Assembly: GCA_033762255.1 (NCBI GenBank)
Contig: JANRLT010000021.1
Span: forward strand, 1-64,000
Direction of reading: 5' to 3'
Length of the DNA stretch: 64,000 nt
DNA from: Pirellulales bacterium
Lineage (GTDB): Bacteria > Planctomycetota > Planctomycetia > Pirellulales > JALHPA01
Below the pieces are notes generated by a model. That model worked only from the letters and a program-made list of their open reading frames with translations. It was not told the DNA's origin and searched no databases. The position numbers were made by a program, and so were the translations under genes. Shown here in pieces: positions 24,963 through 32,685 of the stretch (the first letter of the stretch is position 1; every line of letters begins with the position of its first letter).

Positions 24963-26039
24963 TTAGTATTCGTAAGTGAAAGGTTCCGCTCCACGGCGAG
25001 TCACCATAGAGTAATAGACCTTTGGTTCGATAAGCTCGACCACTATATCTTTTATCGAGCTATCGACACAAGCATGACTGACCACGCTATTGGGATGAGA
25101 ACTACTCGGCCCCCAACTACGACGCAGAGGATCCTTTTCGACGGAATTGTAGAAGCGATTGGGTTCCTGTGGCGTGGGACCATAATTGAGTGCGCTGCGG
25201 TCGCCAGCTTCGGTGTTGAAAACCCATTCTGGATCGCTATCTAGTTCAAAACGGGGAATACCGGTTTTAGGATTATTGCCTTCCACACTGGTGTCTTCAG
25301 GCAAAAAACCACAGGCGAATGTTTGCTGAAAGTCGTACCAACTGGACCGTTCCCGCTCGCTTGATTCGGAAAGCATGACAGTTCGAGAAGTGCCGTCACT
25401 GACAGTTGCCATAGTAACTCCTCTTGGTATGGCACTGCCATTAGGCTTAGGAGTTTCAAAAATGATTGTGCCTTCCCCCAATGTTGCCCTGGCTTCCTTC
25501 CCCACGGTCAACAATTGCTGCTTCGTAGCGGGTAAAGCAATGTAATTTGTCCGTGCGAGTTGGCCGGGAATAGGGGGCGGTTCGGCGGGGTTTAGCATTT
25601 CAGGGATAGAGTGCATGCCCGGTGAAATCCCCTTTTGTCCCTCCCAATCGATTTTTACCTGATCGGCGGGGAGCGTGAATTTCTCGGATTGTTGTGAGAC
25701 TACACGATAAAATTTATCCTGCTCGATATATGGAAACAATCCCATGAGCCAAGAGTACTGCCTGGTTGCCACTACGGGATCGACATGGAAATTTATATAT
25801 TGTCCGTCCTTGTTGCCACTATAAAAGAGCGGGGGAAGGGATTTATGGGCATCGCTGTAATTATGCATCGCAATAGCCCAATTCCTGAGATTGTTTCGTG
25901 AGACATTTCGCCGCGCCGCCGCGCGGGCGGCCTGAATCGCCGGTAGCAATAGCGCGATCAGCAGCCCGATGATCGCCACCACGATGAGCAGCTCAAGCAC
26001 GGTAAACCCGCGACGGGCCGGAAGTAATTTTTTACTCAT
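24963..26039 (-). CDS. DUF1559 prepilin-like protein (tandem copy 1)
   Basis: A 358-residue protein with a type IV prepilin-like N-terminus ([20 protein letters not shown]), in which cleavage would occur after the Gly of RRG and the hydrophobic helix would remain, followed by the DUF1559 domain common in planctomycetes. The C-terminal H-x9-DG motif typical of the family is changed to H-x10-DS (SSHPNSV...VDSS). The ATG at 26039 is chosen because GGAG stands six to seven bases upstream. It is a close relative of the next gene upstream, and both have similar 5' flanks including a palindromic hairpin, which points to a tandem duplication. Role unknown; probably envelope-associated. Confidence 0.9.
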
Positions 26040-26192
26040 CTCTTTCTCCTTGGATAATAATAGCAAGAAAAAACTGATCATTTATGATACCGCCACGGGA
26101 TAACTGCCGCCATCTTTTTTTCTAAATTTGCATAACAGGGGAAGGCTGAGTGCAAGGGATGTTACACTTCAATTGCGACCCGCGCCCCTGTT

Positions 26193-26245: not shown

Positions 26246-27322
26246 TTAATCATCGAGGGAAACTGCTTCTCCCCCAGCGCGGGTGATGAAGGCGTAATAC
26301 ACGCGGGGATCAATTTCGTCGGAAACGAGTGCATGAATGGAGGCATCGACCAGGGCATGATTGACCACGCCATTGGGATGCGAACTGCTTGGCCCCCAGC
26401 TACGACGCAGGGGGTCTTTGGCATCGGTGTTGTAGAGTCGATTTGGTTCCGCGGGAGTCGGGCCAAAGTTGAGAGCCGACCGATCTCCTGCTTTGTCATT
26501 AAAAGTCCACTCGGGGTCTTGATCTGGCTCAAAGCGGGGAATGCCTAGCTTAGGGTCGTTGTTCGGCACGCTGGTATCGCCGGGCAAAAATCCGCAGGCG
26601 AACGTCTGTTGAAAATCGTACCAACTAGCACGTTCCGTCTCGCGGGATTCGCAATACATGAAGGTTTTTGATGTACCATCGCTCAGCCTAGCCATACTAA
26701 TTCCCTTAGGACTAAACGTTCCGGTTGTTTCGGATACATAAAAACCAATTGCGCCATCCGCCAAAGTCGCCTTGGCTTGTTTTCCCACGGTCAACAGTTG
26801 TTGTTTGGTGGCGGGTAGGGCGATATAGTTGGTGCGGCCTGGTTGGCCGGCAACGGGAGGAGGTTCGGCGGGATTGATGAAAATGTCATTGGAGATTGTC
26901 GCTGGTAAAATGCCTTGCATGCCATTGTATTTTATTTTTACTTGATCAGATGCAAGCGTAAAATTTTCTGAAGTTGTGTTGATTTCTTGATAAACATCAT
27001 GGCTTTCAATGAAGGGCAGCAACTTCACCAACCAAGAGTATTGCCCTGTGGCCACCGTGGGGTCAGGATGAAAACCTTTGTATTGGCCATCCTTGTTGCC
27101 GCTAAAAAAAAGTGGCGGCAAGGACTTATAGGTGTCGTTGTAAATATGCGTTGCAATTGCAAGTTGCCGCATATTATTGGTGGATTGAGTTCGCCGCGCC
27201 GCCGCGCGGGCGGCCTGAATGGCCGGTAGTAACAGCGCGATCAAGAGTCCAATGATCGCCACCACGATGAGTAATTCCAGGACCGTAAAACCCCGCCGGT
27301 TAGAAACAGATAACGTGCTCAT
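26246..27322 (-). CDS. DUF1559 prepilin-like protein (tandem copy 2)
   Basis: A 358-residue paralog of the downstream gene, with the same prepilin-like N-terminus ([17 protein letters not shown]), the same order of conserved blocks ([54 protein letters not shown]) and the same degenerate C-terminal motif (H-x10-DA instead of H-x9-DG). GGGAG lies six bases before the ATG. The two genes lie head to tail, with similar upstream sequence including TTTTAGAAAAA-type AT-rich stretches on the coding strand. Expected to be exported and processed by a prepilin peptidase; function unknown. Confidence 0.9.
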   Translation of the reverse strand: MSTLSVSNRRGFTVLELLIVVAIIGLLIALLLPAIQAARAAARRTQSTNNMRQLAIATHIYNDTYKSLPPLFFSGNKDGQYKGFHPDPTVATGQYSWLVKLLPFIESHDVYQEINTTSENFTLASDQVKIKYNGMQGILPATISNDIFINPAEPPPVAGQPGRTNYIALPATKQQLLTVGKQAKATLADGAIGFYVSETTGTFSPKGISMARLSDGTSKTFMYCESRETERASWYDFQQTFACGFLPGDTSVPNNDPKLGIPRFEPDQDPEWTFNDKAGDRSALNFGPTPAEPNRLYNTDAKDPLRRSWGPSSSHPNGVVNHALVDASIHALVSDEIDPRVYYAFITRAGGEAVSLDD

Positions 27323-27521
27323 ACCGTGCTCCCCGTTGAAATTGATTTGAAAAATCTGACCTTATCATACCCCTGCGGGTGGGTGCTGCCAACATTTTTT
27401 CTAAAATGGTAGAATAGGGGTGTTGGAGAGAGCGGAGGTGCCGGGGTGCAGGGGGGCAAGGGGGCAGGGGTTTGGAGGTTTTGCACTTCAACAACTACCC
27501 TCGACCAGCTTCCCGGCTCCT

Positions 27522-27540
27522 CCGCCGATACCATCGGCGG
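27522..27540. repeat. CCGCCGAT/ATCGGCGG hairpin, copy 2
   Basis: The same eight-base-pair hairpin as at 26193, with loop ACC. It lies 200 bases upstream of the second DUF1559 gene and shares neighbouring sequence with copy 1 (CACTTCAA about 30-40 bases before it), so it belongs to the duplicated upstream segment. It also lies shortly before the heptamer array at 27604. Confidence 0.7.
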
Positions 27541-27603
27541 CTTTGTAAGTGCCTTTCCTGACCCCTCGACCCTCATCCCTGCCCCTCCGCTCCCCTGCAC
27601 CAC

Positions 27604-27757
27604 CCTCCCGTCTCCCGTCTCCCGTCTCCCATCTCCCGTCTCCCGTCTCCCGTCTCCCATCTCCCATCTCCCATCTTCCGTCTCCCGTCTTCCGTCTCCC
27701 GTCTTCCGTCTCCCGTCTTCCGTCTCCCGTCTTCCGTCTCCCGTCTCCCGTCTCCCA
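27604..27757. repeat. TCTCCCG heptamer minisatellite (21 full units)
   Basis: After a partial unit, 21 complete heptamers run without interruption from 27611 to 27757. Units are TCTCCCG, TCTTCCG or TCTCCCA; in the 3' half TCTCCCG and TCTTCCG alternate strictly over about nine units. The last unit is TCTCCCA, and its final A is the A of the cysteine desulfurase start codon (A-TGG). The array is pyrimidine-only except for the G or A at the unit end, so one strand is strongly purine-rich. Fragments of the same repeat occur inside the following gene. Confidence 0.95.
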
Positions 27758-29178
27758 TGGACCTCCCTATCTATCTCGACAATCACGCCACCACGCGGCT
27801 CGATCCGCGCGTGCTGGCGGCGATGTTGCCCTACCTGGCCGGACAGGTCGGAAACGCGGGGAGCACCACCCATGATTATGGCCGGAACGCCCGCGCGGCG
27901 GTGGATGCGTCGCGGGAGTCGATCGCACAAATCTTGAACTGCGATCCGGCCGAAATCGTTTTTACCAGCGGCGCGACCGAAAGCAACAATCTGGCGATTT
28001 TTGGCGCGGCCCGCCGCACGCGCCGCCCTGGGAACCACCTGATTAGCGTCGCCACCGAACACCGCGCCGTCCTGGATCCGCTGGCGGCCCTCACGCGGGA
28101 TGGTTACGAACCGACGCTTCTGGATGTCGCTCCCGCTGGCCACGCGCGGGCGGGAATGCTGGACCTGGCCACATTGGCCGCCGCCATCCGACCCACGACC
28201 TGCTTGATCAGTGTAATGCTGGCCAATAACGAGATCGGCGTTATTCAACCTATCCGCGAAATCGCCGCTATTTGCCAGGAACATGGCATTCCCCTGCACT
28301 GCGACGCCACGCAGGCCGTCGGCAAAATTCCCGTCGATGTGCGGGAGCTGGGCGTGGATCTGCTGAGCTTTTCGGGGCATAAAATCTACGGTCCGCTGGG
28401 GATCGGCGCACTCTTTGTCAGGCAAACCGCCAGCGGCGGCAAACGACTACGTCTGCTGCCGCAAATTTACGGCGGAGGCCAGGAACAGGGCCTGCGGAGC
28501 GGGACGCTGAATGTGCCGGGGATCGTGGGCCTGGCGACCGCGCTCAAACTGTGCGAGGCGGAAATGGCAAACGAAATACCACGTTTAGCGGCGTTGCGCG
28601 GGCAACTCTGGCGGGGAATCCAGCAAATTTTTCCCGCAGCGATTCTTAACGGGCCAGATATTGAATTAGATGGGGTTCCTGGTCTTGCATCCCTCTCGTC
28701 TCCCGTCTCCCACCTCTCGTCTCCCGCCTCCCCGTCGGGTGCCACTACTGGCTTGACCAGCAGTGCTACTATTCCTGGTGCTGCCAACCAAATGAACGTA
28801 GCTCCTGGCCTTGCACCTCACCCGCTCCCCAGCCCCCCTGCTCCCCCGCTTCCCTGCTCCGTTGCCTCCCTCCCGTCTCCCGTCTCCCTCCTCCCGTCTC
28901 CTCTCACCCGCCTTCCCGGCAATTTAAACGTCCAATTTCCTGGTCTGGCGGGAGAGGCCCTCATTTTGCAGATGCCGGAAATCGCGATCAGTTCCGGCAG
29001 TGCCTGCACCAGCGCCGAGCCGCGCCCCAGTCATGTCCTGGCGGCTCTGGGCTTATCCCCCGAAGCGGTCCATGCCAGCCTGCGCTTTGGTTTGGGAAGG
29101 TTTAATAGCGCGGAGGATATTGAACTGGCGGTGAAATCCCTTAAAAAGGGAGTGCAAAAACTCCAGGCTCTGCAATAA
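27757..29178 (+). CDS. Cysteine desulfurase with repeat-derived internal insertion
   Basis: A class V aminotransferase of the NifS/IscS type that frees sulfur from cysteine for Fe-S cluster and thio-cofactor synthesis. Present are YLDNHATTR at the N-terminus, SGATESNN near residue 70, the PLP lysine (Lys 209) in SFSGHKIYGP, and the active-site loop SSGSACTS with Cys 417. It has 473 residues against about 380-400 normally. The excess is an insertion of about 83 residues (302-384) between ILNGPD and RLPGNLNVQFPG, rich in Pro, Ser and Leu, encoded by heptamer-repeat DNA and a hairpin element. Both halves of the enzyme remain in frame. The start codon overlaps the upstream minisatellite and has no ribosome-binding site. 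The dicarboxylate symporter follows after 48 bases. Confidence 0.9.
   Translation: MDLPIYLDNHATTRLDPRVLAAMLPYLAGQVGNAGSTTHDYGRNARAAVDASRESIAQILNCDPAEIVFTSGATESNNLAIFGAARRTRRPGNHLISVATEHRAVLDPLAALTRDGYEPTLLDVAPAGHARAGMLDLATLAAAIRPTTCLISVMLANNEIGVIQPIREIAAICQEHGIPLHCDATQAVGKIPVDVRELGVDLLSFSGHKIYGPLGIGALFVRQTASGGKRLRLLPQIYGGGQEQGLRSGTLNVPGIVGLATALKLCEAEMANEIPRLAALRGQLWRGIQQIFPAAILNGPDIELDGVPGLASLSSPVSHLSSPASPSGATTGLTSSATIPGAANQMNVAPGLAPHPLPSPPAPPLPCSVASLPSPVSLLPSPLTRLPGNLNVQFPGLAGEALILQMPEIAISSGSACTSAEPRPSHVLAALGLSPEAVHASLRFGLGRFNSAEDIELAVKSLKKGVQKLQALQ
28690..28911. repeat. Repeat DNA inserted in the cysteine desulfurase gene
   Basis: Two stretches of degenerate TCTCCCG heptamers (about 28690-28735 and 28866-28905) flank a segment with an imperfect palindrome, CACTACTGG (28743-28751) and CCAGCAGTG (28757-28765) around CTTGA. 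A short phrase (TCCTGG-C/T-CTTGCA) occurs near 28675 and 28802, suggesting internal duplication. The total keeps the reading frame and replaces a short loop of the enzyme. Confidence 0.75.
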
Positions 29179-32370: not shown

Positions 32371-32685
32371 TGTAGTAGGCAGCGTCCCGCTGCCGTGCAT
32401 ATCCTGCATTTCCTACCGGGCGCGATTCCTCGCGGTAAACGTTACGGCACGGGGACCGTGCCTACTACATTCGCTTTACGTCTCGGGGACCGCACTGTAG
32501 TAGGCAGCGTCCCGCTCCCGTGCATTTCCTGCATTTCCTACAAGGCGCGATTCCTCGCGGTAAACGTTACGGCACGGGGACCGCATTGTAGTAGGCAGCG
32601 TCCCGCTGCCGTGCATATCCTGCATTTCATACCGGGCGCGATTCCTCGCGGTAAACGTTACGGCACGGGGACCGTGCCTACTACA
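32371..32685. repeat. Triplicated GTAGTAGGCAGCG palindromic repeat
   Basis: Three successive copies begin at 32371, 32496 and 32587. Each starts TGTAGTAGGCAGCGTCCCGC and contains TCCTCGCGGTAAACGTTACG then GCACGGGGACCG; copies 1 and 3 end in TGCCTACTACA, the reverse complement of the start, so each is a long imperfect palindrome. Copy 2 lacks the end. The elements separate two divergent promoters or 3' ends; two shorter fragments of the same family lie at 47262-47320. Confidence 0.85.

Follow-up and report, generated by a model that had tools for sequence, protein, structure and literature searches.

How does repeat DNA of the kind that normally lies between genes come to be read as part of a conserved enzyme? 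This question is raised by a cysteine desulfurase gene in the window, that is, the whole 64,000-nucleotide stretch of a Pirellulales contig that we analyzed. The first-pass annotation had proposed that repeat DNA entered this gene twice, once at its 5' edge and once in frame inside it. The gene and the inserted segment are as follows.

27757-29178, + strand: IscS/NifS-type cysteine desulfurase gene with insert, 473 aa (ORF, Pfam, NCBIfam, E. coli IscS alignment)
28663-28908, + strand: in-frame insert, residues 303-384, 82 aa, 22% P and 20% S, no K or R (alignment, composition)

IscS-type cysteine desulfurases are sulfur donors for iron-sulfur clusters. The ORF matched PF00266 above its cut-off (E 3.6e-72) and PRK14012 in two stretches (E 6.6e-132) with 440 bits, below that model's cut-off of 548 and thus too low to assign the exact equivalog name. 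E. coli IscS aligned to ORF residues 1-303 and 387-472, and in E. coli IscS itself these two stretches are nearly adjacent, the first ending at 294 and the second restarting at 298; the earlier description of an enzyme intact on either side of the insert thus held. H208, K209, and C417 were invariant in a 30-row alignment. We take the H208/K209 region, SFSGHKIYG, to be the PLP lysine site and C417, in SSGSACTSA, to be the catalytic cysteine; both motifs are kept, and the ORF has neither frameshift nor stop. The methionine at 27757 agrees with the starts of relatives (a short leader, then PIY/IYLDNHATT), and the start call is therefore sound. Judged by sequence, the ORF belongs to the IscS/NifS cysteine desulfurases, with a class V aminotransferase fold and a predicted desulfurase activity.

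To place the insert among relatives, we measured the loop from ILNGPD to LNVQFP in the 29 relatives whose loci were fetched, from 56 searched (alignment row L015 is truncated at its C-terminus). The loop has 94 aa in this ORF and 16-32 aa in 29/29 relatives (16-17 aa in 22, 22 aa in five, and 28 and 32 aa in one each). The sole same-family genome, in a sample that reaches down to the family rank, has a loop of 17 aa. Relative to the most frequent loop length, the insert adds a net ∼77 residues, and the spread among relatives indicates that the site is naturally length-variable. None of the 29 relatives carries a conserved insert of matching length, the outcome that would have counted against the first-pass reading. 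A second alignment (29 of 80 loci) had 478 columns for the 473-residue protein, which means that none of the other rows adds much sequence of its own. The two top hits bearing names were Planctomycetota MAGs. Identity to the relatives was 57.3-64.5% when the insert was excluded and 50.6-62.9% over the C-terminal part that follows it, and these similar values indicate that the two halves belong together.

The make-up of the insert is a mosaic, with the following parts.

28685-28724, + strand: 40-nt direct repeat, copy 1 (sequence comparison)
28692-28732, + strand: heptamer stretch 1 (TRF; up to 93% match to dispersed arrays)
28743-28766, no strand: 24-nt palindrome CACTACTGGCTTGACCAGCAGTGC, with near matches elsewhere in the genome
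28820-28865 (about), + strand: C-rich block, with a G4 motif on the - strand at 28827-28854
28862-28901, + strand: 40-nt direct repeat, copy 2, 90% identical to copy 1
28865-28916, + strand: heptamer stretch 2 (TRF 28870-28901; similarity to 27577-27658)

The two copies of the direct repeat are spaced 177 nt apart, or 59 codons, and the similarity of stretch 2 extends a few bases beyond the 3' end of the insert into conserved codons. Proline and serine make up 6% and 5% of the desulfurase core, compared with 22% and 20% of the insert. The first-pass annotation had derived about 83 residues from degenerate heptamers and a palindromic element. Both are present in an 82-residue insert, but heptamers account for only about one-third of it (∼88 of 246 nt, 28692-28732 plus about 28865-28911), the C-rich block contributes as well, and the assigned repeat sources cover only about half of the insert. 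A period-7 signal over the whole insert was marginal (lag-7 identity, 0.393; mean of 500 shuffles, 0.324; maximum, 0.402). The palindrome had three other genome sites at 2-3 mismatches, and a reversed control pattern had none.

The heptamer stretches of the insert match dispersed arrays, with 66 matches in the organism's own genome, the insert itself included. The best match outside the insert joined the gene's own 5' block, 27577-27658, to 28836-28916 (79%, E 9.2e-12); the next-best genome sites were close (E 3.9e-10), and because they score nearly as well, the 5' block is only one of several possible sources. Two further readings were considered and set aside. Words resembling TTCCTGGTCTTGC are present at 28676, 28772, and 28802, with a native counterpart at 28937, but duplication of the gene's own sequence was too weakly indicated when segments A and B were compared with native sequence by shuffling (p 0.017 and 0.053, respectively). 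Nor does a target-site duplication bracket the insert, since the native copy lies beyond the conserved RLPGNLN codons.

At the other repeat site, the start codon, two features were found.

27430-27601, no strand: upstream region with G-rich/C-rich inverted repeats (27445-27469 versus 27577-27601, 84%)
27605-27758, + strand: CTCCCGT heptamer array, ∼22 units, directly upstream of the desulfurase (TRF)

TRF gave CTCCCGT × 21.7 for 27605-27756 (90% match; score, 241). The array had been described as running up to the start codon and supplying its A; it does, and its final unit, CTCCCAT at 27752-27758, provides the T of the ATG as well. The - strand reads (GGGAGAC)n, with G4 pattern matches within 27592-27672. 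Of the proposal that repeat DNA entered the gene twice, the in-frame insert stands, whereas the 5' array abuts the start codon and has not entered the gene. The two repeat sites of the desulfurase thus differ, one being a typical gene-edge array and the other a rarer intragenic one. A palindrome of the type CCGCCGATACCATCGGCGGCTTTGT lies at 27520-27547, and palindromes of this type also occur beside arrays in six stretches fetched from the genome (L156, L158, L164, L173, L174, and L181); this recurring palindrome beside many heptamer arrays looks like a REP-type element. On the far side of this region, two neighboring tandem genes at 24963-26081 and 26246-27322 (-), presumably prepilin-like and of the DUF1559 type, have near-identical N-terminal segments. 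Downstream, the window holds a tandem repeat at 32476-32674 (91-bp unit, 2.2 copies, 92%).

How widely is the heptamer spread? The exact 19-base pattern CTCCCRTCTCCCRTCTCCC had 72 matches in the organism's own genome and one match in total among 56 relatives. A stricter 19-mer was found in 7 of 392 genomes of a phylum sample, with 46 copies here and 1-4 in each of the six others, which indicates that the heptamer expanded in this lineage. The scan covered 47 stretches retrieved around heptamer matches and a further 9 kb from the window; ORFs of at least 130 aa from ATG or GTG were called with a simple caller that filters by codon-position GC. Eight of the 47 stretches had no array at threshold (L171, L176, L183, L184, L191, L193, L195, and L197), and the array of L199, seen only under a wider unit list, is outside the polarity count.

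Of the 47 arrays found, 6 were inside called ORFs and 41 were not wholly inside. The nearest ORF lay beyond the 3' end of the C-rich strand for 34 of these 41 (23 stops and 11 starts), and the nearest boundary was on the other side for the remaining 7 (4 starts and 3 stops). Among the 37 arrays with genes called on both flanks, a set that leaves out the six arrays inside ORFs and four without a called gene on one side, 31 had the nearer gene on the C-rich 3' side (binomial p 4e-5). Counting the two sub-arrays each of L156 and L186 once gave 30/35. At convergent gene pairs, whose facing edges are both stop codons, the polarity was followed by 10 of 11 arrays (p 0.012). The exceptions were both sub-arrays of L156, L158, the first array of L166, L169, and L189. 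As RNA, (GGGAGAC)4 was predicted to reach -8.4 kcal/mol in the G4 state.

Other repeats accompany the arrays. Seven-base-like tandem repeats (GGATAGT and GAATTAC/GAATTAA) lie upstream of arrays in the same intergenic regions in L158, L163, and L173, and several heptamer families may coexist. In L156, at 2072-2241 and following, a repeat GCGCTCCGCTGCGCGTCGCGGCTAAACTTGCCGCG occurs inside and right after the heptamer array, as if nested. Cyanobacterial STRR and small dispersed repeats likewise mix heptamer tandem repeats with nested small repeats, a likeness drawn by description only.

Heptamer G4 repeats, GGGNATC and GGGGA(C/T)T, are known from Xanthomonas and Nostoc. Their G-rich strand is the sense strand where the repeats follow a stop codon and the antisense strand where they precede a start codon, in either case within 50 bp (Rehm et al. 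2015, PMC4692102). The same paper gives an intragenic share of 11% in Xcc and 7% in Xac and an intergenic share of 68% in Nostoc. A gene-edge position before a start codon is thus usual for this repeat class, and the array abutting the desulfurase ATG belongs to the before-start, antisense type. The repeats described there share with ours a G3 tract, a seven-base unit, dispersal, a mostly intergenic location, variable array lengths, and gene-edge polarity. They differ in unit and phylum, ours being GGGAGAC repeats for which G4 folding is predicted only. We therefore rejected membership in the GGGNATC family itself, the unit here being GGGAGAC; by unit and placement, the GGGAGAC heptamers appear as the same kind of repeat in a separate family. 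In-frame insertions in named conserved proteins, found here, are absent from the passages of Rehm et al. 2015 (PMC4692102) that we could consult. A literature search that covered subscription journals thinly returned no report of GGGAGAC repeats in planctomycetes and none of in-frame heptamer insertions in conserved genes.

Rickettsia palindromic elements offer a second comparison. The review PMC2229807 reports them in frame in conserved proteins, in 19 reading frames, with one such enzyme translated and active, and gives them as hairpin elements of 105-146 bp with terminal inverted repeats (Ogata et al. 2000, cited therein). Like these elements, as described there, the insert is repeat DNA in frame within a conserved protein; unlike them, it is a tandem heptamer mosaic for which defined ends were not found. 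Our inverted-repeat search returned no pair spanning the insert, only the 24-nt palindrome inside it, and we rejected identification as such an element.

The desulfurase is not the only gene with in-frame heptamers. The gene at 7196-8674 of L166 (C25), with a Thump_like domain, has 39-53 extra residues compared with all 13 relatives computed, and the methyltransferase gene at 1227-2306 of L170 (C27) has 55-79 compared with all 11 relatives computed. Both are methyltransferase-like, and both carry in-frame heptamer insertions where relatives have 1-19 aa. Matches were found in 27 of 39 genomes searched for L166 and in 37 of 39 for L170, own genome included, many of the L170 matches being weak and to other methyltransferases. 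The heptamer is read as a GDGRRET-like peptide in these two genes and as an LPSPVSR-like peptide in the desulfurase; as the unit length of seven is not divisible by three, all frames of one strand give one peptide (LPSPVSR sense, GDGRRET antisense). Five other candidates were dismissed as intragenic cases. In L164 (dihydrouridine synthase), the array is upstream of the likely start and the conserved domain; L196 (terminase-like) has a short weak stretch only; and in L160, L167, and L182, the arrays are in the longest ORF yet upstream of the conserved part.

An AlphaFold2 model built with 30 sequences had a mean pLDDT of 81.9, with the core mostly above 90 and residues 308-361 and 363-380 of the insert below 50 (about 30-40). 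The model matched E. coli IscS closely (1p3w: Z 52.0, rmsd 1.5, 375 residues; 3lvm: Z 52.1, rmsd 1.6, 377 residues) and also the IscS of the IscS-IscU complex (3lvl: Z 51.9, rmsd 1.6, 377 residues). Structure prediction, which had been suggested as a check on whether the insert lies in a surface loop, thus returned a disordered loop extension on an undisturbed IscS fold. In this model, the insert lengthens a loop while the predicted core fold is undisturbed, and the ∼80-residue extra loop is probably floppy.

We consider it very likely that intergenic repeat DNA came into a variable surface loop of a normal desulfurase, where it likely forms a tolerated disordered loop. CTCCCGT/GGGAGAC heptamers, the palindrome, and C-rich DNA, all normally between genes, would have been inserted, or copied from intergenic repeats, into the loop that precedes the strand LNVQF. 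Predicted G-quadruplexes on the G-rich strand of the arrays could favor such copying or slippage. The heptamer stretches, being stop-free in any frame, could be read through by the ribosome provided that the overall length were divisible by three, and the 5' array indeed has no stop codon across six frames. This is not a special property of the heptamer, as 8,264 of the 16,384 possible heptamers are stop-free in all frames. Most intragenic copies would break the frame or the fold and then be lost. The three survivors known here lie in loops that are short in relatives and may have persisted where frame and core were kept. The outcome here would be a translated, disordered Pro/Ser/Ala/Leu loop of ∼80 residues, most likely tolerated by a working enzyme and neutral or nearly so.

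Could the insert instead have been made by the assembly, with short reads joining repeat-bearing contigs within the gene? Arrays did break the assembly, as contigs C10 and C49 end in heptamer arrays, but both halves of the gene are of the same subfamily and similarly identical to relatives, 82 codons keep the frame, the sequence of the insert is degenerate and mostly unique, and two other genes show the pattern; we regard such an artefact as highly improbable. It is also unlikely that the gene is becoming a pseudogene while another cysteine desulfurase does the work. Candidates for that role exist among 13 Aminotran_5 matches in the genome, several near the full profile (for instance, C29:76606-77721 and C44:174977-176056), but the absence of a frameshift or stop, the retention of SSGSACTSA and SFSGHKIYG, and 57-65% identity to relatives argue against decay.

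A selected role for the insert, as a disordered linker or an interaction loop (e.g., towards IscU- or TusA-like partners), would fit its position in the C-terminal part of the fold and the fact that it is still open although its heptamers have diverged from consensus. Against this, the insert is lineage-specific, of low complexity, made of material as found in intergenic DNA, and predicted to be disordered, and its conservation cannot be shown; we assign selection for such a role a low probability. A function of the loop is possible, and nothing here asks for one. We are doubtful, too, of a broader proposal, namely, that the fixed polarity reflects directional copying or insertion of G-quadruplex heptamers that also seeds in-frame coding sequence.

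If that proposal were true, G-quadruplex heptamers would repeatedly give rise to disordered protein loops. Repeats of a similar kind are already known in other bacteria, and the desulfurase is a neat illustration, not a novel system. With this genome, the polarity is seen in a third lineage, unrelated to the first two and with another repeat unit; the C-rich 3' end faces the nearest gene edge whichever the gene's direction, and this extension beyond Xanthomonas and Nostoc makes a shared mechanism testable. In the insert as we read it, a core enzyme loop would offer a natural experiment in the tolerance of foreign low-complexity sequence, and intergenic heptamers would have turned into protein in three conserved genes of one genome.
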